A stretch of 64,000 bases of DNA from Antedon mediterranea (Eukaryota > Echinodermata > Crinoidea > Comatulida > Antedonidae): positions 20,769,201 to 20,833,200 of the forward strand of contig NC_092670.1 in the NCBI RefSeq assembly GCF_964355755.1, given 5' to 3'. Made by a program: the position numbers and the translations under genes. The notes beneath the pieces were generated by a model. The model did not search any database, was not told the origin of the DNA, and worked only from the letters and a program-made list of their open reading frames with translations. This document shows, piece after piece, positions 6,001-64,000 of the stretch (position 1 is the first letter of the stretch; each line of letters starts with the position of its first letter).

Positions 6001-9000
6001 TGTTCAAGATTGAAAATGTGACGATTGAAAAAAAAGTGTAGGTTCTCATTTGCATAGTTGATACACAGTTGTTCAAAACTGTTTGTTTGGAAATCCTGAA
6101 AAAAAAACAAAAGATGTACTACAGTTGGTTCAAGAGCCAGATGTGTACACTACTACATTTTATCGAACCCTTGCTGATTTTATGGCTACATATTACGGTT
6201 CCACTCGGCCACTCACTCGCTCAAAAGAGCCAGATGTGTACAATACTACGTTTTAATGAACCCTTGCTGATTTTATGGCTACATATTACGGTTCCACTCG
6301 GCCACTCACTCGCTCAAAAGAGCCAGATGTGTACACTACTACGTTTTAATGAACCCTTGCTGATTTTATGGCTACATATTACGGTTCCACTCGGCCACTC
6401 ACTCGCTCAAAGTATACTTTAGTATAGTTTACCTCAAAGCCAAATATGTCAAGGATTGCAATCGAAGACACTTTTTGCGCTTTGTTAACCACTTTGTTGA
6501 TGTTTTGAATCAACCAAGTAAACAATGTTGAATACAGTGACTTTCCAATAGCATCCCTTAAAGACAATATATAATTATTACTATATTTATTAATAGCTAC
6601 ATAATCTTACATCTTACTTAATCTTAAGCTCTGTCTAACTAGTTTGACAAAAAAAGTGTGATGTGCCCAAATATGGTAGTGATATGCTTAAATATGCTAA
6701 TGATATGACATCATCATGTCCATATATGAGCACATCAAGTTTGATAGTGTAGACAGAGCTTAAGATACACATACACATATATCTCCTTTGGTATAAATAC
6801 TATGTATAGTAAATGGTCCTTGATAATTTGATTATGGAATGGAAATCAAATCAAATTGTCATCATATTTTTGACGTCACATAACAATCTCTTTGACATTT
6901 GAATGCAATTAAGTTACAATTCAGTAAATATTATTTGTCTATACTATGGGTACTGATATTAACCACACATAATATGCCTTTTTCTTGAACATGGATATCT
7001 TTTGTATGTAGTATTTTTTTCCATCAAGACATTTTTCAATTTACCTAGCATCTTGTGCTTGTTCATGGGTCAAAGGTGACATGATTCTTTCACCACCAGG
7101 TTCCTATGGAAACAAATATAAACAACAAATGAAACATATCCTATTTATTTGAAATGTATAGAATGACGAAATATTATTATTATTAAGGATCCACAAGAGT
7201 CACTTCTCACAACCTCTGACCTATCATAACCTCTGACCTCTGTTGCATAGTCTCAGTTAAAATCTTATACTTACTCTCATGAACTTATGTGTCATCGCTT
7301 TCTCAAGTTTTTCTGACGACACCATTAGTAGTTGGGCTGACTTTCTTAGTTCTTGAACGTTAGACACAATCAATGATTCTTCTCGGCCATGCTGGTACGT
7401 AAATAAAGAAGTATTTTATATTACTTAAAAGATTCTCAGTGAATGAATAATTATAAAGTATTTGGAATATACAAATTCATAACAATATTTTTAGAATTAC
7501 AGAACCATTACTTGTGATTAGGTAAATTTGATATTACTTAAAAGATTTATCGATGAATAAATAATTATATTATTTGGAATATATAAATTCATATATTTTA
7601 TTTAAAGAATTACCTGTGATAGGGTAAATTTGATATTTCCAAGGTGTAGTACAGCAGACAGGACACTAAAGATGGCTTCCATCTCAGCTGGCTGGAACTT
7701 GAGGATTTCCATAGCCGACACCAACCGTATAAAAGACTCAGCATCCTGACGACTGCTGATCTGCGGACTTCCACCCTAGAAACAATTATTAAATAATATT
7801 TATGTTATTATTTATAATTATGTTAAATATTCACTATTCATATTAAATATTCACTATTCATATTAAATCATTTATATTCATATTCACTCATTAATATTCA
7901 TATTGAATGATTTATATTCATATTTACTCATTAATATTCATATTGAATCATTTATATTCATATTCACTCATTTATATTCATATTAAAACATTTATATCCA
8001 TATTCACTCATTAATATTCATATTGCATTATTTATATTGATATTAAATCATCTATATCCATATTCATTCATTAATATTAATATTGAATCATCTATATCCA
8101 TATTCACTTATTAATATTCATATTGAATCATTTACATCCATATTCATTCATTAATATTAATATTGAATCATCTATATCCATATTCACTTATTAATATTAA
8201 TATTGAATCATTTACATTCATATTCACTTATTAATATTAATATTGAATCATCTATATCCATATTCACTTATTAATATTAATATTGAATCATTTACATTCA
8301 TATTCATTCATTAATATTAATATTGAATCATCTATATCCATATTCACTTATTAATATTCATATTGAATCATTTACATTCATATTCATTCATTAATATTAA
8401 TATTGAATCATTTATATCCATATTCACTCATTAATATTCATATTGAATCATTTACATTCATATTCATTCATGAAAATTAATATTGAATCATTTATATCCA
8501 TATTCACTCATTAATATTCATATTGCATTATTTATATTGATATTAAATCATCTATATCCATATTCATTCATTAATATTAATATTGAATCATCTATATCCA
8601 TATTCACTTATTAATATTAATATTGAATCATTTACATCCATATTCATTCATTAATATTAATATTGAATCATCTATATCCATATTCACTTATTAATATTCA
8701 TATTGAATCATTTACATTCATATTCATTCATTAATATTAATATTGAATCATCTATATCCATATTCACTTATTAATATTCATATTGAATCATTTACATCCA
8801 TATTCACTCATGAAAATTCATATTAAATCATCTACATCCATATTCACTTATTAATATTCATATTGAATCATCTATATCCATATTCACTTATTAATATTCA
8901 TATTGAATCATTTACATCCATATTCATTCATTAATATTAATATTGAATCATCTATATCCATATTCACTTATTAATATTCATATTGAATCATTTACATCCA

Positions 9001-12000
9001 TATTCATTCATTAATATTAATATTGAATCATCTATATCCATATTCACTTATTAATATTCATATTGAATCATTTACATCCATATTCATTCATTAATATTCA
9101 TATTGAATCATCTATATCCATATTCACTTATTAATATTCATATTGAATCATCTATATCCATATTCACTTATTAATATTCATATTGAATCATCTATATCCA
9201 TATTCACTTATTAATATTCATATTGAATCATTTACATCCATATTCATTCATTAATATTAATATTGAATCATCTATATCCATATTCACTTATTAATATTCA
9301 TATTGAATCATTTACATCCATATTCATTCATTAATATTCATATTGAATCATCTATATCCATATTCACTTATTAATATTCATATTGAATCATCTATATCCA
9401 TATTCACTTATTAATATTCATATTGAATCATCTATATCCATATTCATTCATTAATATTAATATTGAATCATTTACATCCATATTCACTTATTAATATTCA
9501 TATTGAATCATCTATATCCATATTCACTTATTAATATTCATATTGAATCATCTATATCCATATTCACTTATTAATATTCATATTGAATCATCTATATCCA
9601 TATTCATTCATTAATATTCATATTGAATCATTTACATCCATATTCACTTATTAATATTCATATTGAATCATTTACATCCATATTCATTCATTAATATTAA
9701 TATTGAATCATCTATATCCATATTCACTTATTAATATTCATATTGAATCATTTACATTCATATTCAGTCAGAAAATTTAGTATGTGTTCTATCTATGTGA
9801 AATGTGTTTTATTTAGAACATATTGTGTAAATATGTATTGTGCTACATTATGGTGCAACTATAATCAAGGTACCTTGCGATCTCTCCAGGTATGCTACAA
9901 TAATTGTTGCAAAGGCCTCGACATTGCAGTGCCAGCCTCATGTTTACGGAATGTAGAATTCCCTCTTTTTATGAATTGTTAATCAATATATCAATATATG
10001 GCCTGATGTGTAGACTTAATGCAAGCAAAAATATTTTAATCTCAACGATTATAAGCAACGTCTTAGTTAAGTCGAAGATGCTCTCCAGATGGAATGCCAT
10101 CCTGAGATGAGTAGTAGTAATTTTGTTTATTTTATTTATTTCATTTATATGTAATTTACTTTCTATGGACCACTCGAGTTTCCGAAATAAAAGATTGAAT
10201 GAATGAATGAATATTCACTCATAAAAAATTCATATTAAATCATCTTAAAGATGAATGAATATGGATATAGATTCTATATCCATATTCATTCATTAATATT
10301 AATATTGAATCATCTATATCCATATTCACTTATTAATATTCATATTGAATCATTTACATTCATATTCACTCATGAAAATTCATATTAAATCATCTACATC
10401 CATATTCATTCATTAATATGAATATTGAATTATCTATCCATATTCACTTATTAATATTCAGAATCATTTAAATTCATATTCACTCATTAATATTCATATT
10501 AAATCGTTAATATCCATATTCACTCATTAATATTCATATTCACTAATTAATATTCATATTAAATCGTTAATATCCATATTCACTCATTAATATTCATATT
10601 CAATAATTTATATTCACTCATTAATATTCATATTAAATAATTATATTCATATTTACTCATTAATATTCACCCATATTCACAGACTTTCAATTATAATCCC
10701 ATATACATACCTGGTTTAAGTAGCGGTAGTTTGAAGCATGTCGCAGACCATACTTAGCTTTCTCTCCCTCTGACATGCCTTCTATCATCTCATAGAAAAT
10801 ATGGTAATTTCTCTCTCCTGGAGCCTGGATAATGTAAAAATAAACTTGTATAATTCATGATTAAATATGTATAAAATATCAATTTAAAAAGACCTTTGAA
10901 AAGATTGAGTTCGCTGGTTTTTTTTATTCACAATTCACAAAAAAATGTATTATTATTTTTATAATACTGTATATAATTATGAATTAAAATATAATAATAA
11001 AACATACCTGATGAGCTATTCTGGACTTTTCAAGGAGATAATCCGTCGTTTTTGCACCAGTAATAGAACCACTACAAATATAGAAAACACATTAATTCAT
11101 AATTACTGACCAGAAAAATAAGTGAATGTTAAGGTCTTACAATTTGTCATTCCATACTCATACTCCCACAGAGCTTAAAATCTTATCTCATATTCTGAGA
11201 GGACTCCATAATGTAAAAGTACTTATTAATACTGTAGCACAATAGTTGACCCCTTTCTTTAACCTCATTAATGCAATTGAAATGACTTACTTTGTGAAAT
11301 ATACTTCAATATATTTTCCAAATCTACTTGAATTGTCGTTTCTGATCGTCTTCGCGTTCCCAAATGATTCTAGGACTGGATTTGCTTCTAAGATCTAAAA
11401 ACAAAAAATGAATTTTCATCTTAATTATTAAAATATATAAGTAGTTAAATTTAATAAATTTGTTCTTTTTTCCCTTGTATTTCCAAATGTATCAAATATT
11501 TGATAATCCGAGTATTATTATTAATATCTACACTACAAAACTAAGTTTGACAAAAAAGTGTGAATGCCCAATAATGGTAGTGATATGATCACATCATCAT
11601 GTCCATGGTTACATCACATGTTTTTGTCACATAAAGTTTGAAAGTGAACACATAGCTTAATTTTTATCTTCCTTAACAGTACTTCATTTACTCTACAAGA
11701 CTGTACCTGTTCTGTAATAAGATTGGATGAGGACTTATTAATGGCTGCTAGATATTGCATAATAAGTTTTGTACTTTCGGTCTTGCCAGCCCCACTCTCA
11801 CCACTAATCACTATACACTGGTTTTTTCCGGCTTTCTGCATGCTCATGTAGGCTGAGTTGCCTATTGCAAATAGATGACTGCGGAAAAGAAATACACCAA
11901 AATTAGACACCTAACTTTGCCTCCAGTTTATCAATCATTTTGTTTATTTATCAAACCAGTTCTTTTATCTTATGGAATGGAATGGATATACAGTATTTGC

Positions 12001-47717: not shown

Positions 47718-48250
47718 TTTACCACTGATGATTTTGTTCCAGTGATGGTGACAGGAGTTCAACTGGATCGTCTACCGATGCAGTTTGATTCGGCTGCAGG
47801 GATGATGATTCATCAGTGGTATATTATGTTAATTTACCAGTAGACTGGACGGAGCGTCATCATTCACCGGCTTGTGCTGATGATTTTGTTGATGTGATGG
47901 TGACAGGAGTTCAACTGGATCGTCTCCGATGCAGTTTGATTCGGCTGCAGGGATGATGATTCATTATCAGTGGTATATGTCAATTTACCAGTAGACTGGA
48001 CGAAGCGTCATCCTTTACCGGCTTGTGCTGATGATTTTGTTGCTGTGATGGTGACAGGAGTTCAACTGGATCGTCTACCGATTTGATTCGGCTGCAGGGA
48101 TGATCATTCATTATCAGTGGTATATTTTAATTTAGCAGCAGACTGGACGAAGCGTTATCATTCACCGGTTTGTGCTGATTTTGTTCCTGTGCTGGTGACC
48201 GAGGTTCAATTGTATCCTCTACTGATGCAGTTTGAATCAGGGATGATGGA
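47718..48250. repeat. About 150-bp tandem repeat derived from the last exon of receptor C
   Basis: The segment around GGAGTTCAACTGGATCGTCT occurs at 47755, 47907 and 48058, with a more diverged copy inside the coding exon near 48202. The periods are about 152, 151 and 144 bp. The coding copy carries the end of the receptor C frame; the other three lie in its 3' untranslated region. Confidence 0.8.
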
Positions 48251-49681: not shown

Positions 49682-50019
49682 GGTTGATGAAAAATGTGTA
49701 GGCCTATCTGACAGAAACGATGAGGAAATATTAACCTGCAGTAGAAAAAAAGAGAAGGTGATTAAGCAAACTTTTGTTAATATATTGATTTCCTTTTAAA
49801 ATACAAAGTACTGTACGGTAATATATGTAATTATGTTCTGAGTCATCAAGTTATTTCCGTAATGTGCGTAATTCCCCGTGAAGCATATGCCTGTAATGTG
49901 ACGTCAGTTAAAGTTATCAATGAAACGCCCACCCACGTCACGCGATCGAATGCATTTCCGGTAACGTCATTGTATACGGTATTATTACATTTGTTTGAAA
50001 ACCTATAGGCAGAAGAGGA

Positions 50020-50345
50020 GATGGGGTGTGGTGGTTGGAGATGGGGTGGGGTAGTTGGAAATGCGGTGGGTGGAGATGGCTGTGGTGGTTGGAGATGGGG
50101 TGGGGTATTGGAGATGGGGTGGGGTATTGGAGATGGGGTGGGGTGGTTGGAGATGGGGTGGGGTGGTATGAGAGTGAGAGGAGTGGTTGGAGATAGGGTG
50201 GGGTGGTATGAGATGTGGTGGTTGGAGATAGGGTGGGTTGGTATGAGAGGGGTGGTTTAAGAGGGGAGGGTGGGGTATGAGATGGGGTGGTTGGAGATAG
50301 GGTGGGGTGGTTGGAGATGGGATGGGGTGGTATGAGAGGACTTGT
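50020..50345. repeat. G-rich minisatellite (GGAGATGGGGTGGGGTGGTT type)
   Basis: Irregular tandem units of 20-30 bp, with GGGGTGGGG cores on the plus strand and C-rich on the minus strand, in the 5' intron of receptor C. Runs of four G at short spacing could form quadruplexes. The antisense 159-codon proline-rich frame is a by-product. Confidence 0.88.
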
Positions 50346-52880: not shown

Positions 52881-55800
52881 ATGTTATATTTTGAATCACA
52901 CGCGAGTTGGTTATTTTTATTTTTTCTTGTTAACAGTTTCGTTGCTACAGGTAAGACAACATTTATTTATAAACTATTTTAAAACAGTTTTTCTCCTTTT
53001 TTTTTTATAGTAGGCCTATAAGTTCTCTCAGTGAATTTCCTTTCCACCTTCACTATTAGGCACCGCGGCCTATGTAAAATATATCCTCCGCGACTGTGCT
53101 TTCACACGTATTTTAAGTAAGTGAAGTTATTGGATTTCCACACTTTTTATAATTATATATTATAATATTTATTATAATTCATTCCAATAATTATTTGACT
53201 TTACTATTATTCTTTAAAAACGTTGCAAAAAATCATATTTTATAAAATATAAAAAGTTATATTAGGACTCCAATGGAAACTAATTCTTTTTTGTAGAACT
53301 AATTATAATGAAGACTATAATTAATGAACAAACAGGCCTACATTAATTGTTACAGTTATCAACAATAGGCGGCTAAGCCTCAGATTGATCGGTATATCTT
53401 CATATTTACTAAACTTGGCAATAATACATAACAGGGAGTGTCCAATCATGTTGCGTAATAAACGTTTGTTATAGCTTACAAACAACAGATCTGAAATATT
53501 TTATAGTATACCTACAGTATATCATCACAAAATCAATACAAACATAAATTGAGAAAGTAGTAATTCAAAACCGTTAATGATCAAAAAATACAATCTAGGG
53601 GATCTTTTGTATGCATGTAAAAAGACAGTATGTAGGCTAAAACCTTCATTAGGTTTATTTTAATAGGCCTATTTTATTGGATTCGTCACGACAGATAAGC
53701 TATTGCAGATCCGCCTAAGGAAGTCAAGTCACTGGTTCATGCTCGTTCTAAACATACACATACATTTCAGAGGACCCATTCGGGACTCACCAAACTGTCC
53801 TCTGCGTAGAGCTGTTCTACTAGAAGGATTATATTGTATACAAATGGAATTATTTATCATTATTTATTTCTTTCAGCTTTACTAGAAACAGACGAACATT
53901 CAGGAAAAGGTAGGCCTATAATGTCTCAATTAATTATAACCAAACACAAAATCAATGGTAGCCTTCATTACTTAGTAATTTTAGTTATTTATAATTAATA
54001 ATAATAATTTTGATGAACTTAATTAAATATTTAATGTAAATAATCAGACGTCTCATGCATTCTGCCGGAAGTAGACAGGCTATAGTAACTAAAAGTTGCG
54101 AGTAACAACATCTGGTTTACCGATTAAGTGTGTTTACAGAATTATTACAAAATCACAAATTACTTAATATTCCACAAAATGTCAATATGAACTAACATTT
54201 AGTTCATTAATTAGTTTTTTAATGTTGTTTCAATTCATTTTTATTTCGGATTTCATGAACATTTTAACGAAGATAAGGCCTAAACACATACATAATATTT
54301 TCACATTTATAAATTCTAAAAACAGCGGTGGCAGTATTTGGAACTTCAGGATCTGGAGAGAATGTTTATTTTCACACCGAGGATGAACACAAGCAAGACA
54401 AAGATGTACACGTGATGATGACGGCTGCACCAGTTGTGGCGGGAAGTGGACCTTCCGGTTCAGTAGTAAAGGACACGACATCATATGTTAGAATAAATTT
54501 ACACAACATTGGAACTGTAGTTTCAAACGAAGACACAAGACACACATCTAACACTCATACTGAAGAGAGTACGTCAGGAGGTTGGTGGAAAGAGGAGACA
54601 ACAAACAACTATACTCATTATTCGGTAGAAACTGTGACACCAGGAACAACGGAACACAGCTTTAACATCCATGAAGAAAGTGGAGTAGATACACTGAGAA
54701 ACAATTCCGAAAGAGTGGAGTCGGAGATGCCAATTTTAGCAATACCTACAGAACCAACTGTTGACACTGGACCAGGTAAAAGACGACTATTGTGGACTGC
54801 AATCAAATTGCAGACGACATCTCAAAGAACGGATGGCAAACAAGAAAGGGATACATTGTTATACAAATTTCGGTCATAGCATTAGTACTTCATGGTCTTC
54901 TCTCAAAAATAAGAATTATAATTATATTATTTAGTACACTTTTCAGGAGAGCGTTTGTCATAAATTAATCCATTTAAACTGATCATTTAAAATAAATCTT
55001 CACGCTGTATATTATTGTAGTTAGAAAAAATTATTTGCATTTTCGTAAACATTTTTGCAAATATTTCAATTAAGTTACTGTTCTATACATTTTAAGTACA
55101 TTATTTTAAATGTCGGGTTTTCAGGTACAAGTAATTAGATGAATTCATCTTGCTAATTTTCAAGCTTTTGCTTTTATTTAGGTTACATAGTTCTCATAAG
55201 TGACTATCAGAATGGGGTTATTGAGCATGCGTACTTGGAAGATGAGCACGATACCAATGTGTCTTTTTCTGTGCTACCAATAGGCATTAGGCCTACATTC
55301 GGTGTATCAGGAATCGCATTTGATCCCGTAGATAGCGTTGTTTACTGGTCTGATCGGAGTAAAAAGGTAATCGAAAGGGCGTATCTGGATGGTACACACC
55401 GTCACGTGATAGTGAGAAATGTTGGTAAGTCTCTTTTTTTTCTTCTCATTTTATACATTGATTTTTTCATTTCCCTCTTCCCTCTTCTCATTCTCAAATA
55501 TGATTTATCTTTATTTATAAAAAAAATATTGTTGATGTTGGTGTAACAAATGCTGTTTTTCAAGCTCGTCAACTTTGTGTTTCCATTTATCTCGTAATGT
55601 ATCTTACGAAACTTTATGAGTGACTTCTCAAATTAATTATTAAATCGAAAAAAAACTTCAATAGTATCATCATTTACGTTTTTGTTTATTCTATGAAATT
55701 CTGCTGGTATTATAGTGTATGGCACAGGTTTGAATATTGCGTCATCGTTTATCAGAAATGAAATGTGTTTACTGTCACTAGACATGATTTATATTATTTA

Positions 55801-58800
55801 CAAATAGAAACTATATATATGAACTTGTTTGGTCCTACAGAAATACAAAGTTGTTGAGCATAAATGAAATATCGTGTAGACTTTTTAAACTGTATTACTA
55901 TTATTAGTAACAGGACAGAGTGGAATTGAAATGACTAAACAACATACGATTGATGTGGTGTTATACCTTAAACATAGTATAGTCCAAAAGACATATTATT
56001 CTCTACTAAACTGCTACTACTGTTATTTCAAATGCTTATAACATTAAACATGTCTTTATGTTATCATTTATATCGATATCTGCTTTACAATAATAACATC
56101 CCTATTCATACGTTATGAGCTAAATTTCCAGTGGCAAAACGAGTGAATATACACAACTAAATACTCTGATACCTATGAAGAGGACGCATGGTCACAGGAG
56201 TGTTTCTGTATATCTACAGTATTCACCGTAGTTAATATTATATCAACTAGAAATGTCCCCCTTTTAATGGCCTCTACTATCAACAATTCAAATTCCAGAT
56301 GCCTCTTCACTTGCACTTGACTTGGTCAACAGGAGGTTGTTTTTTGATGTTAACAATAACAAAAATACAGAAATAGAACGATCCAATCTGGATGGAACTG
56401 GACGAGTTACCGTGGTTAAAAATCAAAATTTTGAAATTGACGATGTTGAAATTAATAAACGGTAAATGTGTTTTTTTTTTATTTAGGTAAAGAACGTAAC
56501 GAAATGATTTGTTAAATAATTGCTGTCTTCTAATTGTTGTCCAATCTTTTTTCTTTACTGTCCTACAGTTTAACATATTCTAAATACATAATTTACAACT
56601 GTAAATTCTTTAGTATAGTGGAATTATAAGTTCATATATTAATGAAAACAATTATTTATGCCCTCAATAAGTATTTAGTAACCTCCGAAAAGCTGGAGCT
56701 AAGTCACACATGAGCCTTTAAACATAATTTAAATATAAAATTGACTTATAGGCCTATTTAAATAAGTTTCTCAAAAAGAACTGTTTTGTTTTCTTGTCTC
56801 GTAGCTTTGTCTATTTTAGTTCTATGGAGGCAAGAAAGATAGAGCGCGCTGTCAAGACGAGTGGAAAGCAAAGGAAAACTCTAGCTGAGGAAATTTCCCC
56901 AAAAGGCCTGGCCATCTCATCAGACGGTATGTATCATTATCATAGGTCTACTATTTTTCTTAGGGTCCCAAGTACTCCTCCCCGATCAGTTCCTGAACAA
57001 CCACATTCAACAACCACGGTCTATATATTGTTGTTTAAGGTAAAGGTATCTACTGGACTGACGGAACATCTAACCATGTGATGGAAAGTGACCTATCAGG
57101 CGATAGCAAGACGATGGTTTTGGACTCTTCCTACTATCCTGGTCTGAACAACACTCAAGATGTTGCCGCCATTGGAGAGTACCTGTTCGTAATCACAGGT
57201 GACAGTGACCGTCTTATTCGGATAAATCGAAACAATCTTCAAATACAAGATATTGGAGAAGCTGTTTTCAATGATCCACGCAAAATAAAGATCGGTAAGT
57301 ATACAAACAATATAACAAGACTAGTCTAGGTTCTAATATTGGTAAAAATGTTGGCATATATGGTACACTTAAGCTGGAAAAATCAAATTACAGTAATAAA
57401 GAAATCAAGAAAGAAAAAAGAAAGTTGTCTGAGAAAGTTAAATCAACACCATGAGCAATACTAGACTTCCAGAGACATTATTTATATAATAAACGATCTG
57501 GATTCAACTGGGATGCCTGGATCAGACGTTAACTGCCAATCAATCAATCAATCAATCAACAATTGGGTTTTAATTTGTTTTCTTTTAATTTTTTGCAGTT
57601 TCATTGATGGGAGCATTTCTAGCAATGCCAACAAAGACAGGTAACGTTATCGTATTTAATTTAAATTAATTATTTAGACGATATATCGTTGTTTAAATGA
57701 AATGTAAATACAATTTCTAGTACCGATAGGAAGAGGGTTTACATGTAAAAGTATACATCCAATCATTACATTAACACAGTTTCTATTGTCAAGTGGTTAG
57801 TAAACTTGGATATTACCATCATTAACTTTTACAATTTGTTTTACAACAAACAGATTCTCTGTTGCAACGTTTTATGGCAACTAATGAAAAAGCAACAGCA
57901 GAATTTGCACCACAGTGCAAGGCGTTAGGTCTTGATGAACGAGAGCCACTCGTGTACAATGATGAAGCTGGTGAGTATTAAGCTCTGTCTACACTATCAA
58001 ACTAGTTTGCCAAAAGAGGTATGATGTGACAAATATGGTAGTGATATGACATCATCATGTCCATACATGGCCGGCACATCAACATATTTTTGTCTCAAAA
58101 AGTTTCAGACTTTACTACTTTAGGTATCAATCATTGAGAAGTAACCAAACAATTGGCAATTAATCCACGTTGTGAAATCGGGACACAAACATTACAGTAC
58201 TGTGGTTATTATTTTGAAAATTAATTTTTGTTCTTGTATTGGTTTTTGCTTTAGTTGGTACACTGTCAAAATCACGTGGTTCACATACTGACGTAAATAT
58301 TCATTCAAGCTCATCGATTTTGTATTCCATATCACCCTACTCATCTCAAGGTAATTGTACAATATCATTTCAACATTTGTAATGGAACGCTCAATACGAT
58401 AAAACTTATTGGCGTGCCAAATATCTCAAGAAAAAACCAAATGTAGCTGTCTATTTTTCATGTCAAAGATTACCAATAGTAAATTATAGACCTATCTAAA
58501 ATGTTCAAAACCTGTGTGTAATAACACGTTATTCTTGTTCTTTTTTTCAAGGAGAGACATGTAGTGTATCGCTATTATGGAACAACTCGTATGACAATAC
58601 TTTAATACAAAGGTTTGTACTGTTGTTAAAGATCAAACATGGATTATGTTTTAAAAAAAAGATAACAAAAAATAACTCACCCCAAACTTCATTGAATAAG
58701 TAACTTGAACGAATGGTTTGTTTGTGCAATTCCCCCTAAAAAAAATCCTAAAACAGTTGCAGGCATGTCACAATCTTTATAAAAAGAAATCAATATATAT

Positions 58801-61800
58801 TATATAGAACTGTCACAATGTGGAAATCGGTTAGATTATATTCGTAACCTAACATAAGGTATAGTCGATAGCATATGTTAAACATAATAAATAGGCTTAC
58901 CTGTTTTCCATTTTGGTTTATTTCGGTGGGCCGAAACACATTGAAACTGTATGATGTTCATCATGGATAAAAATGTGTGTAGCTTGAGTTGAGTTACAAC
59001 TTTAGAGACTTCTTGTGCAATGAAAGGACCATACCATTCTCATAATAAATTCAATATAGGCTACCTAATGAAGGCCCCGTATCTTTTTTCTACCCTGATA
59101 CAAACTATCTTATAAATTAACTAGTATGGTTCTATCATTTGTTTTCTTCTTAGAGTTAACAAAGAAGAAGAAATGGTCTACTTTCTTGCAAGCAGACTTG
59201 TATCCATTGTAACCTATAATGTAAATGAAGATGCAGTCGCTAATGGAAACACCTTTATACATTTTCCTTCGGATGAGGTAATGTCTTTCTACAAAGTTTG
59301 TTCAAAACATAACCTTAAACATTAGGCCTACACAGAAGAAGATTGATAGGCAGTGGGAGATTTGTCTCCTCGCCATGTATTGAATGAACATTGTAATTGA
59401 TGTTCTTTATCTTAATAAACCTTTATTTTTAGATACGCTGGAAGAGAAATGGTTACCGTACCAGAGGAACAAGCAAGCCTGTGTGCACATACATTGATAG
59501 AACTTCACTGTAAGAATTAAACTATATCAATTTTCTTTCTTCAATAAAGTGAACACTTTTTAAAGCTACTTTTTAAAAAAACGTAATGCATACTTGTTCG
59601 TACTCAGCAACTTGTTGCTGATGCAAAATATTAAAAAAAAGCTTGACGTACTTTATTTATAAAGATACAATAATTGATTTGGTCAACAGTTCCTTTTCTC
59701 CGGATGGATGCAAGACCTTCGCAAGTGATGCCAGGAAAAATGGCGTATCGTGCTCTTGCCACGAAGGGACTTCATTCGCACTCCTAATGGATATTTCGTC
59801 ACTGGTACGTACAATGAAAATTGCAAATACTGCTGCAGTTCAGTCTGACTGTGCTCACTATGCAAATATTGTAATATAAATGGGTTGGCCTCCTCACAAG
59901 TTTTTATAAAGACGTACTGTACTACATTAAATTACACACTCTCTAAGCATAATCCAAAAAAGATGCATGGACTACAGCATGTATTACCAGACGTTACTGA
60001 AACTGATTTGAAATAATGCTCATCTTCTTAAAATCTTCTCTATTACAGATTTACTATCCAGAAGCACTGTTGATAGTTACTTGCTTAGCCACAGTCTTGT
60101 CAATTTTAAGTCTACTGCTGATCATCTTCGGAACTGCAATAATGAAGTAATTATGCTTACAAAAGAATATCATGATCTTCATTTTTATAGTTGATTGGAC
60201 AGGAGAAAGTAGTAAAACCATAGCAATTGGAACTTAATCTTAGTGTTTAATATTAGTAAAATTTGACTTCAGGCTAAATATATAGGTGTGCCATAATCAA
60301 ATAATTCCCCTATAAAGACCTATTTACATAACTAGTTCATTGTTTAGTTTTATTTATGTAATACTATAATTGTCTTACAATTTACAGGAGAATGAAACAT
60401 CTTCCAGAAAAGAGCCTCATTCGAAATCTGTCAATTGCTTTGCTACTGGCGAATGTTGCACTATTGGCAGATACGGGTGCTGATTTAAACACATATTTTG
60501 TAAGTGATCTTTCGTTACAGTTCGTATGACTGAAGAGGTAATACGAAATAGATTGGTAAATCTTGTACTCTTTTATTACAGGAGCTTACAAACACGATGG
60601 CGTTATCGATTCACTTCTCACTAACATCCGTTTTCGTCTGGTTGTTCTTAATGATTTTCGACCTCTTCATCAAAGAGAAATTCGCATCCTGCCGAGCACA
60701 GAACTTCAATTGTTTCTACCAGTCGTTTGGTTGGGGAATGCCAATATTGATTTCTGGACTGAGTGCCGGGCTGCTGTGGGACGAATATGCTGCACCAGAA
60801 TACAGGTATGCGAGAAAAGTGGAACTTTGTAGTTATCATGCTTACCTACCAATCCTAGGCTCTTGTTTCAAGGGTTACATAAAGAATTCTGTTTTTCAAA
60901 CTAAGCTTGCATTATCGTGAATATAATCTAAACAAACATCATTCAAAAGTATAACTATGACATATGACATGACTTCAGGAATCAATTTCTACCATTATCA
61001 CACAGATCATGGCCAGACCCAGACACTGAAGCTATATGGAGCATGGTTGGACCAATCATTTTCTTTATTGCGGTAAATATTCAAAGCTTTCATTAGAACA
61101 CGATAATGTCCTAACTCGGTTTAAACGTTGTAAATCATTAAGGAATTACAAGACTATGTTGCAACGAAGCCATATATATGGCTGCGTTCGCGTGTTCAAG
61201 TTAGTGTTTACCGACCAACCGACCGACATAGTGAGCTGTAGAGTCGCGTTAAAAACTGTATAGTATCGTATTCATCAGTAACAACAGTAGTTTGTGATTT
61301 TTAATAGATATGTAGTTGTGTAATTAGGTGCATTCGAGTTCTCAGTAACCATTCCATACATATTTAAATATAAACATGTATTGTATTTTAGATATCATTG
61401 TTGATGTTGTTGGTTTTAATTGTTCAAAGTTGCAGTGCCAGCTCTATGCATTTGATCAAACAGCAAGAACGGTACAGGCGACAAAAACGAACAAGGTATT
61501 TTCCATAGCTGTAATATCCATATTTCAGAAATAATTAACTAATAGGATATTTATTATCGGTGCTATCTGAATAAAACTATTAAATGTTTTATAATTTTTG
61601 TTTAGGTTAAAAATTGGGCTGTTCACCTTTCTACTAATATACATAAGTGCTACGTGGTCTATTGGGGTGTTTGGAATCAAGAACATAGATCTACAATATG
61701 TGTTTGTCATTCTGAATGGAACAATTGGCTTTGTGCTCTTATTATGCATAAACAGATTGTCAAAGAGGGTGAGTATTTAACGTCTTGTTAAGATTGTTTC

Positions 61801-64000
61801 CTACTAGCTGCGCGTCTACGCAAACTCACAAATGAGTTGGGTTATGGGTACGATGTCATTACAATCATGGGCATCTGGACATAGTAAGCCAAAGTGTCCG
61901 ATAGTCCAGATCGCTAGTCATACGAATCAAGTTTTTACAAATTCTTTTTAAATTCAATAAGAGTGAATATTATATTTGTAGACAAAACAGGTACAAGCCC
62001 GAGTGGAGCCATCTATTCATGGACAGTCTTTACCAGGTGCTTATTATGATGAAGATATTTTGATGCCTCACAGTTCAGATTACAAACAAAGCCATTATAA
62101 TGAAGGATACATTGTGACAGAAAGTCCCATACAAAAGCCGATGGAAAAACCAAGCAGGAAAAAATATAGAAAAGAAACTTCTGATACTAAAGTATTCTTT
62201 ACTGAAGGTTCTGCGCAACAAGAACACTATCAACAAAGAACTAGTGACGTTGGTAAGCGGGATGGTAAAGCACGTGAGAAGGTCTTTCGTGAAGATATAA
62301 CACTTCAGATTTTGGAAGAAGGCAAGCCAAACGATGAAGTAATTGATATTGAAGAAGAATATATTACAGGTATATACCATAAGGATAGAATCTCTGATGT
62401 ACCAATGGAAGTTGAACCATCTTCAAAACGTAGATCATTAAAGAGATTGACAGGTTCCCTAAAGGATAAAAGCAAGGCACTGATCCATAGCAGTACCGGT
62501 TTAGGAAAGAAAATAACAGATTATCAGAAGCAGAAATTTCATGGAAAAAATAAAGAATTAACAAAGGATATTCAGGAGACAACTATTACCACGAGAATTG
62601 AAGACGATTCCATTATTGAAATGGTTGATTATCCACAACAACTTGTAGAAACAGAAAGGAGGCAAACCATGCCAGATAAACATGAAACTACAATTATCCA
62701 AGAAAAACAAGAAATACAGCAAACAAGATCTCCTGGTGTAAGACGTCACTTACAGGATACTAGTGACAATAACCGAAAAGAACCAGAAACAAGACGAACG
62801 AGGTCACCTGAGCAACAAAGACGTCCGACACAACCAATAGAAAGGCATCCGATTAGATCAAAAGATCAACATAATAGAGACGTTTATAAAACATCTGTAA
62901 CAAGAACAGAAGAGGATTATATCATTAATGAAGATGACAGAGTAGAACGTAGACCAACAAGGTCACCTGAAAGGCAAAGACGTCCAACAGAAAGGCGTAC
63001 AGGTAGACCAGATGAACAAGACAAAACAAAAGATGTTTACGAAACAACTGTTACAACAACTGACTATGTCATAACTGAAGATGACAGAAGAGAACCTGAA
63101 GACATAAGACGAACAAGGTCACCTGAGAATCAAAGACGTCCAATTCAACCAACAGAAAGACGTCCAGGTAGACCAGATGAACAAGACACAATTAGGGATG
63201 TTTACGAAACAACTGTTACAACAACTGATTATATCATTACTGAAGATGGCAGGAGAGAACCTGAAGACATAAGACGAACAAGGTCACCTGAAAGGCAAAG
63301 ACGTCCAACAGAAAGGCGTCCTGCTGAACCAGATGAACAAGACATAATTAGAGATGTTTACGAAACAACTGTTACAAGAACAGAAGATGATTATATCATT
63401 ACTAAAGGCGACAGAAAAGAACCCGAAGCAATAAGACAAACAAGGTCACCTGAAAAACAAAGACGTTCAATTCAACCACCAGAAAGACGTCCAGGTAGAC
63501 CAGATGAACAAGGCACAACTAGAGATGTTTACGAAACAACTGTTACAACAACTGACTATGTCATAACTGAAGATGACAGAAGAGAACCTGAAGACATAAG
63601 ACGAACAAGGTCCCCTGAAAAGCAAAGACGTCAAACTCAACCAGCAGAAAGACGTCCAGGTAAACCAGATGAACAAGACACAATTAGAGATGTTTATGAA
63701 ACAACTGTTAAATCAAAAACAGAAGAGGATTATATCATTACTAAAGGTGACAGAAAAGAACCCGAAGCCATAAGACGAACAAGGTCACCTGAAAAGGAAA
63801 GACGTCCAATTCAACCAACAGAAAGACGTCCAGGTAGACCAGATGAACAAGACACAATTAGAGATGTTTACGAAACAACTATTACAACAACTGACTATGT
63901 CATAACTGAAGATGACAGAAGAGAACCTGAAGCCATAAGACGAACAAGGTCACCTAAAAAGCAAAGACATCCAATTCAACCCACAGAAAGACGTTCAGGT
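52881..64000 (+). CDS. Adhesion-type GPCR with YWTD-like propeller and giant repetitive cytoplasmic tail (3' end beyond window)
   Basis: Exons: 52881-52950, 53877-53909, 54326-54775, 55182-55424, 56299-56461, 56805-56926, 57040-57294, 57599-57640, 57854-57970, 58255-58350, 58552-58612, 59154-59277, 59433-59509, 59690-59804, 60049-60146, 60388-60499, 60582-60805, 61006-61072, 61392-61495, 61606-61768, 61982-64000. All junctions keep frame (1585 codons so far). The order is signal peptide (1-23), Thr/Ser/Glu-rich region (35-184), YWTD-like repeats (about 184-445; VVYWSDRSKKVIERAYLDG, GIYWTDGTSNHVMESDLSG), a GAIN-like stretch, a GPS at about 618-656 (CSCHEGTSFALLMD), seven membrane helices (657-912), then a cytoplasmic tail of at least 673 residues. 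The family senses matrix or cell contacts at the surface. GPS and TM2, TM4 and TM7 words identify the class. The first two small exons are less certain. Confidence 0.8.
55182..57294 (+). other. YWTD-like (LDLR class B) propeller exons of the GPCR
   Basis: Four exons encode repeated blades. Each has a hydrophobic VYWSD, LFFDV, VYFSS, IYWTD or LFVIT strand, followed by an I.R or IER basic turn, a (L)DG or SG, and a hydrophobic end. At least five blades can be counted. This is the LDL-receptor class B pattern; an NHL or other propeller is the main alternative. Confidence 0.6.
57979..58112. mobile_element. MITE family A copy
   Basis: Starts AGCTCTGTCTACACTATCAA nine bases inside a GPCR intron, right after the donor of exon 57854-57970. 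The right end is degraded. This is the second case in the window of this family beside a splice donor. Confidence 0.75.
60049..61768 (+). other. Seven-transmembrane exons of the GPCR
   Basis: Six exons hold TM1 (LLIVTCLATVLSILSLLLII), TM2 (NLSIALLLANVALL), TM3 (IHFSLTSVFVWLFLMIF), TM4 (FGWGMPILISGLSAG), TM5 (WSMVGPIIFFIAISLLMLL), TM6 (LKIGLFTFLLIYISATWS) and TM7 (LQYVFVILNGTIGFVLLL). The GWG-P and GP words are standard for adhesion GPCRs. The usual cysteines at the start of TM3 and in the second extracellular loop are absent. Confidence 0.8.
62798..64000 (+). repeat. In-frame coding repeats of 52-58 residues in the GPCR tail
   Basis: RTRSPE-type unit starts occur at 62798, 62957, 63113, 63278, 63440, 63605, 63779 and 63944. 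Spacings are 156, 165, 162, 165, 174 and 165 bp after the first, all multiples of three. Each unit has an Arg/Pro-rich part (SPE.QRR, ERRPGRPDEQ) and a part with DVYETTV and an acidic Tyr motif. Two Tyr-motif versions, TTTDYVITEDDRREPE and DYIITKGDRKEPE, alternate in part. The array continues beyond the window. Confidence 0.92.

Follow-up and report, generated by a model that had tools for sequence, protein, structure and literature searches.

The receptor gene and its domains

The window, i.e. the whole 64,000-nucleotide stretch analysed here (Antedon mediterranea, contig NC_092670.1, referred to as C1, positions 20,769,201 to 20,833,200), holds on its plus strand, at 52881-64000, a chain of 21 exons that join into a single open frame and that we read as one candidate gene for an adhesion G-protein-coupled receptor (aGPCR) with a YWTD propeller, a seven-transmembrane (7TM) domain and a giant cytoplasmic tail; the gene extends past the end of the window. 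Starting from the bare letters, the 21 exons have been derived anew and independently: GT-AG borders are found at every one of the 20 introns, each exon takes up the phase of the one before it, and the joined exons amount within the window to 4,782 nt, i.e. 1,594 codons with zero stops, which bears out the single continuous frame that a first-pass annotation had claimed. Exons 1-20 account for 921 residues, and the predicted product of the single gene is an aGPCR of 6,365 residues, consisting of these 921 residues through the end of the 7TM domain and a tail of 5,444 residues.

Exon 1 (52881..52950) carries the start codon and the segment MLYFESHASWLFLFFLVNSFVAT, and ends at the donor CAG/gtaag in phase 1; its hydrophobic core is recognised by eye, and what stands of the signal peptide annotated earlier is a signal-peptide-like N-terminus. 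Two linkers follow, the short LLETDEHSGK of exon 2 (53877..53909, phases 1/1) and the 150 residues of exon 3 (54326..54775), which are rich in Ser, Thr, His and Glu and match no Pfam domain. The propeller occupies the next four exons, all of which have paralogous exons at a second locus, on contig C7: exon 4 (55182..55424, with equal phases in the paralogue) encodes blades 1-2 (VVYWSDRSKKVIERAYLDGT) and is supported by the Ldl_recept_b match, exon 5 (56299..56461) encodes blade 3, which is seen in the LRP and nidogen alignments, exon 6 (56805..56926, 122 nt exactly in the paralogue as well) encodes blade 4 (FVYFSSMEARKIER), and exon 7 (57040..57294) encodes blades 5-6 (GIYWTDGTSNHVMESDLSG), the last two exons being supported by structure matches. 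Exon 8 (57599..57640) is a linker of 14 residues, with no counterpart located in the paralogue.

Exons 9-12 (57854-57970, 58255-58350, 58552-58612 and 59154-59277) encode a short stalk that resembles GAIN subdomain B, with conserved cysteines and collinear paralogous exons of equal phase, while exons 13-14 (59433-59509 and 59690-59804) encode a degenerate GPS (VCTYID...GC...CSC-HEG-TSFALLM). The transmembrane (TM) helices are spread over six exons: TM1 in exon 15 (60049..60146; 7tm_2 match), TM2 in exon 16 (60388..60499; 7tm_2, paralogue and ADGRG2 alignments, 112 nt in both paralogues), TM3-TM4 in exon 17 (60582..60805; 224 nt in both), extracellular loop 2 (ECL2) and the start of TM5 in exon 18 (60979..61072), TM5 and intracellular loop 3 (ICL3) in exon 19 (61392..61495; 7tm_2 match), and TM6-TM7 in exon 20 (61606..61768; 163 nt in both). 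Exon 21 (61982..64000 within the window) encodes the first 673 residues of the cytoplasmic tail, joined in phase 0 as in the paralogue, and runs on to C1:20847516.

The evidence for the propeller comes from residues 186-446 of the joined protein, where the Pfam search, which could have found no propeller, instead returned Ldl_recept_b above its cut-off (4.5e-6), together with an overlapping DUF5050 match (3.4e-7). Compared alone with solved structures, the same residues match nidogen 1npe (7e-17), LRP4 (3e-13) and LRP6 (1e-14 to 1e-35), the propellers of LRP6 and LRP2 being matched repeatedly, and six blade-like segments are legible, as a YWTD propeller predicts. These matches show the region to have the sequence hallmarks of a six-blade YWTD propeller, and the LDLR class B-like propeller of the earlier annotation is confirmed by them. 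An NCBIfam search of the propeller gave no match; single-sequence AlphaFold models of exons 4 and 7 were of low confidence (predicted local distance difference test, pLDDT, 47 and 60), and a fold search with the exon-7 model, which placed many propellers among its best matches, all at E of 0.2 or above, has not been used as proof.

The 7TM domain matches 7tm_2 in Pfam over 248 residues (663-910, 2.1e-15), and residues 607-921 match the solved structures of ADGRG2 (5e-15), ADGRD1 and latrophilin-3, so that the seven adhesion-family helices, too, were read correctly. The Pfam GPS match is weak, its 16.3 bits (E 0.015) falling short of the cut-off of 22.5: the site, VCTYID...SPDGC...VSCSCHEGTSFALLM, keeps four cysteines and a C-x-C that align with those of ADGRG6, ADGRG2 and latrophilin-3 (ADGRL3), and has lost both tryptophans. 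The HL/T(S) autoproteolysis triad is common in aGPCRs, though not universal; in the window gene it reads EG/T (CSCHEGTSF, where H is replaced by E, L is replaced by G and T is kept). The TSFALLM that follows the GPS fits the tethered-agonist consensus TxFxxLM, which is described together with the role of the toggle Trp in PMC13197933, where B2 and B3 are also reported to have GAIN domains that stay uncleaved; the toggle Trp of TM6 is retained in exon 20 (ATWSIG). The Cys that opens TM3 and the Cys of ECL2, the latter with Ser in its place, are both replaced, in the window gene and the paralogue alike. Because the GPS has lost HL/T, the receptor is probably not cleaved there, and would keep its tethered agonist in a single chain.

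No GAIN match was obtained with Pfam on the joined protein, where the model is insensitive (PF16489 matches one locus genome-wide). The span of about 200 residues between the propeller and the GPS fits GAIN subdomain B and is too short for a full GAIN domain, and the ADGRG6 match starts only close to the GPS. Searching with the profiles Ldl_recept_b, GAIN, GPS and 7tm_2 has thus recovered the propeller and the 7TM domain, with the GPS below its cut-off and GAIN unmatched; the annotated GPS-type motif is present with its four cysteines, in a degenerate form that has lost HL/T.

The paralogue on contig C7 and other propeller receptors

Our genome-wide searches covered 18 contigs, of which 11 are large, with a total of 354 Mb; counts of Ldl_recept_b and 7tm_2 matches are lower bounds, taken among the matches listed. 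A search with the window protein revealed the second locus on the minus strand of C7, with a propeller match 15.7 kb upstream of a 7TM match. Over the 30 kb that were read, the order is that of the window gene, i.e. propeller, GAIN-like stalk, GPS, 7TM and tail: 14 exons are paired at both ends, and the tail exon through its acceptor, all with GT-AG splice sites and identical phases (a comparison at one end or both is possible for 18 of the 20 introns, without a single disagreement in phase). Six exons (6, 10, 12, 16, 17 and 20) have identical lengths, and all 14 paired exons are open, at a protein identity of 184/617 residues (29.8%). The collinear paralogue with its matching phases therefore argues strongly that propeller and 7TM domain have long been part of one ancestral gene, and on its account a separate-gene origin of the two is rejected; with the profiles, it supports the earlier claim that propeller, GPS, 7TM and giant tail lie in one gene.

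It is accordingly very improbable that the exon chain merges two neighbours, one gene for a propeller protein of the LRP/nidogen type and another for an aGPCR. LDLR class B (LDLb) exons are frequent in the genome, and the joining of the exons is read from genomic sequence, but the C7 locus has its exons for propeller, stalk, GPS, 7TM and tail arranged as in the window gene and in matching phases, and, among the matches listed, at least nine LDLb matches are followed by a same-strand 7tm_2 match within 60 kb downstream, against none on the opposite strand; at least three have a same-strand 7tm_2 match upstream, as tandem arrays would give.

The C7 paralogue is more eroded at its GPS (GVRCSFEYGNVFVLLS, with CSFEYGNVF at the cleavage region), its introns carry transposon-like reverse-transcriptase frames, and its TM1 and TM5-ICL3 exons, the counterparts of exons 15 and 19, were not found in two scans, so that this copy may be damaged or decaying. 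Such signs, together with the degenerate GPS and the lost TM3-ECL2 disulfide cysteines, would suit an adhesion or decoy protein that does not signal, or a gene en route to decay. We consider this unlikely for the window gene, where no exon is interrupted, all splice sites are intact and both the tethered-agonist motif and the toggle Trp are retained, and where the 14 detected paralogue exons, open at 30% identity, imply long constraint.

An LDLb propeller combined with an aGPCR recurs in the genome and is not unique to the window gene. At least seven further loci, candidates for a second and larger set of such genes, four on C1 (6.90, 7.27, 39.60 and 39.67 Mb) and three on C9 (14.90 Mb, 16.79 Mb and 15923301-15942200), show LDLb upstream, then a canonical GPS right before the 7TM, on one strand. 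In one C9 copy, of which 18.9 kb were read, YWTD blades (Ldl_recept_b, 6e-18), an EGF-like exon and a GAIN-B-like exon occur with a canonical GPS (DHLTNFAVIM) and a stop within the GPS exon. Order, strand and recurrence suggest that the C1 and C9 chains are single transcripts. They share with the window gene an LDLb propeller that precedes the GPS and the 7TM domain, and differ from it in the canonical CFCDHLTNFAVIM-type GPS, in the EGF exon and in the structure of the blade and 7TM exons; because of this different exon structure, the genome probably holds two kinds of YWTD-headed aGPCR.

Further matches were seen in the same searches. On C4 (6.98-7.06 Mb), a propeller exon 43% identical to that of the window gene was considered as a third receptor of the family and rejected: a Thr-rich frame of 901 codons follows the blades, and no 7TM was found in 26 kb. 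Four tandem propeller-exon copies, 43-45% identical to window exon 4, lie at C4:6985303-7057007, and the copy that was read is a YWTD gene without a 7TM, followed by the Thr-rich frame and a Cys-containing exon. On the minus strand of C7, at 2285068-2320980, eleven near-identical GPS matches stand in tandem at a spacing of 3-6 kb, which may reflect a recent array of genes or exons or stem from the assembly. Genome-wide, at least 160 exon-level 7tm_2 matches were recorded; adhesion/secretin-type 7TM genes are abundant, several of them single-exon.

The predicted cytoplasmic tail

In the neighbouring genome sequence, exon 21 extends to 16,335 nt, a single stop-free frame of 5,444 codons from the acceptor at 61982 to C1:20847516, which is 14.3 kb beyond the window end; the repetitive tail of at least 673 residues noted earlier is confirmed in its repeats and open frame, and is predicted to be far longer, in one exon. 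In one repeat array about 34 anchors recur with a unit of ~55 aa, in a second about 43 with a unit of ~43 aa; between the two lies a non-repetitive island of about 450 residues (roughly C1:20839018-20840367). No Pfam family was matched by the tail, island included, and no second genomic copy of the island was found; by eye, the island looks foldable. The composition is polyampholytic and poor in hydrophobic residues (1,068 K+R and 1,130 D+E, net charge -62), with 92 S/T-P pairs. The other five frames of the region carry 138-698 stops, which argues that the tail frame has been held open by selection. Between repeat units, differences at third codon positions are 0.126, against 0.091 and 0.116 at the other positions, in one array, and 0.105, against 0.086 and 0.078, in the other.

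In the C7 paralogue, the tail exon also begins in phase 0 directly after TM7, so that the joint between 7TM and tail is supported at two loci; its open frame of 264 codons is unrelated in sequence, and neither the sequence nor the length of the tail is conserved between the paralogues. This bears on an alternative that we judge rather unlikely, though less so than a non-signalling protein, namely that the receptor is real and that the giant repeat exon is part of a different transcript or confined to a rare isoform, the normal protein being read through the exon-20 donor and ending just past TM7 with SKRVSI at the stop at 61780. Such an end is provided by an in-frame stop a few codons beyond the exon-20 donor (open reading frame 61595-61780), an internal start is conceivable at the first Met of exon 21, 28 codons in, and the paralogue tails are entirely different. 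Against it, a good phase-0 donor and acceptor are present at both loci, with a long open frame after each, the open frame of the tail starts exactly at the acceptor, and the 213-bp intron leaves scant space for a separate promoter. An isoform ending in SKRVSI just beyond exon 20 is possible.

Other repeats of the window lie outside the receptor gene. A 151-bp repeat (3.4 copies, 47725-48235) and a G-rich minisatellite (50017-50331) are found a short distance upstream of it; an AT-rich satellite, in which a 40-bp unit is repeated about 48 times, occupies 7855-9770, with a related 20-bp array at 10273-10669, and the segment 8001-10000 has a GC content of 20% and a strong G/C skew.

Proposed activation and comparison with known receptors

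Taken together, it is fairly probable that one gene encodes a secretion-signal-like start, a linker, the propeller, a stalk with a degenerate GPS, the 7TM domain and the repeat tail, and that the product signals uncleaved. The YWTD propeller would be the part that binds the ligand, the role it has in LRP5/6, LRP4 and nidogen; the GPS without HL/T would leave the receptor as one covalent chain, in which ligand binding or tension could shift the stalk and let TSFALLM engage the 7TM domain without dissociation of fragments, and the 7TM would then signal via a G protein. The polyampholytic, S/T-P-rich repeat tail would most likely form an extended, multivalent scaffold in the cytoplasm or a tether to the cytoskeleton, tunable by phosphorylation. 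The ligand, the G protein and the function of the tail are inferred. We see an even chance that this is a mostly intracellular class of GPCR, an uncleavable propeller receptor whose 5,444-residue scaffold directly couples events outside the cell, binding or tension, to a giant polymer inside it.

Several points weigh against the one-gene signalling receptor. The exon chain is a prediction from genomic sequence; GAIN is undetected by Pfam and the GPS is under its cut-off; the lost TM3-ECL2 cysteine pair leaves the predicted G-protein activity in doubt; and the undetected TM1 and TM5-ICL3 exons suggest possible decay of the paralogue. As regards the tail, the third-position excess between units is only slight, so that its exact sequence would be weakly constrained, and the two tails share no sequence, so that a conserved tail function is unsupported. 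Our claims are graded accordingly: the predicted architecture and its paralogue are the strongest, uncleaved activation is held with moderate confidence, and the tail as a translated, functional scaffold is the weakest.

With the window gene, the YWTD propeller, a module familiar above all from LRP and nidogen, joins the known heads of aGPCRs, and the genome searches suggest that YWTD-headed aGPCRs are numerous in this genome. The two genes with degraded cleavage sites, with the agonist intact in the window gene, offer a natural test of dissociation-free activation. If translated, the 5,444-aa tail would be exceptional among GPCRs, with most of the mass inside the cell; the predicted 6,365-residue protein would then be about the size of ADGRV1, whose mass lies mostly outside the cell instead.

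In the literature, a 2026 review (PMC13197933) names OLF and EPTP in its list of aGPCR extracellular domains, where YWTD/LDLb is absent; the amphioxus aGPCR expansion (PMC2246102) is listed with LDL class A, Kringle, SMB and SRCR, the class B propeller not being among them; and the LDLRR-GPCRs of Ciona bear class A repeats (PMC2396169). Choanoflagellate and sponge surveys gave no mention of a YWTD/LDLb aGPCR in the passages retrieved by search term, and no paper with the combination was found in open-access full text, a search that excludes animal protein databases; existing gene models of related species may hold the architecture without comment. The candidate "undescribed receptor type" of the first-pass annotation is thus without description in the open-access text searched, while its pairing of domains recurs at seven or more loci of the same genome.

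Among known systems, the LDLR/LRP family and nidogen share with the window gene, at the sequence level, the six-blade YWTD propeller. The window protein lacks LDL class A repeats and an EGF domain after the propeller (no Pfam match to LDLa or EGF in the joined protein), and has seven TM helices in place of the single helix of the LDLR/LRP family, to which it does not belong. The aGPCRs (class B2, with ADGRG2 and ADGRD1 as the nearest solved structures) share the 7tm_2 fold, the GPS cysteines, TxFxxLM and the toggle Trp; the window gene differs from them in the missing HL/T and TM3-ECL2 cysteines, the short GAIN and the predicted 5,444-aa tail. The amphioxus aGPCRs are, like the window gene, those of an invertebrate deuterostome with unusual extracellular domains. 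Latrophilins (ADGRL) and ADGRV1 likewise carry a β-propeller head on an aGPCR; olfactomedin, lectin and HormR domains are not among the Pfam matches of the joined protein, which sets it outside the latrophilins, and whereas the propellers of latrophilins and ADGRV1 are OLF and EPTP, that of the window gene is of the LRP/nidogen YWTD family.

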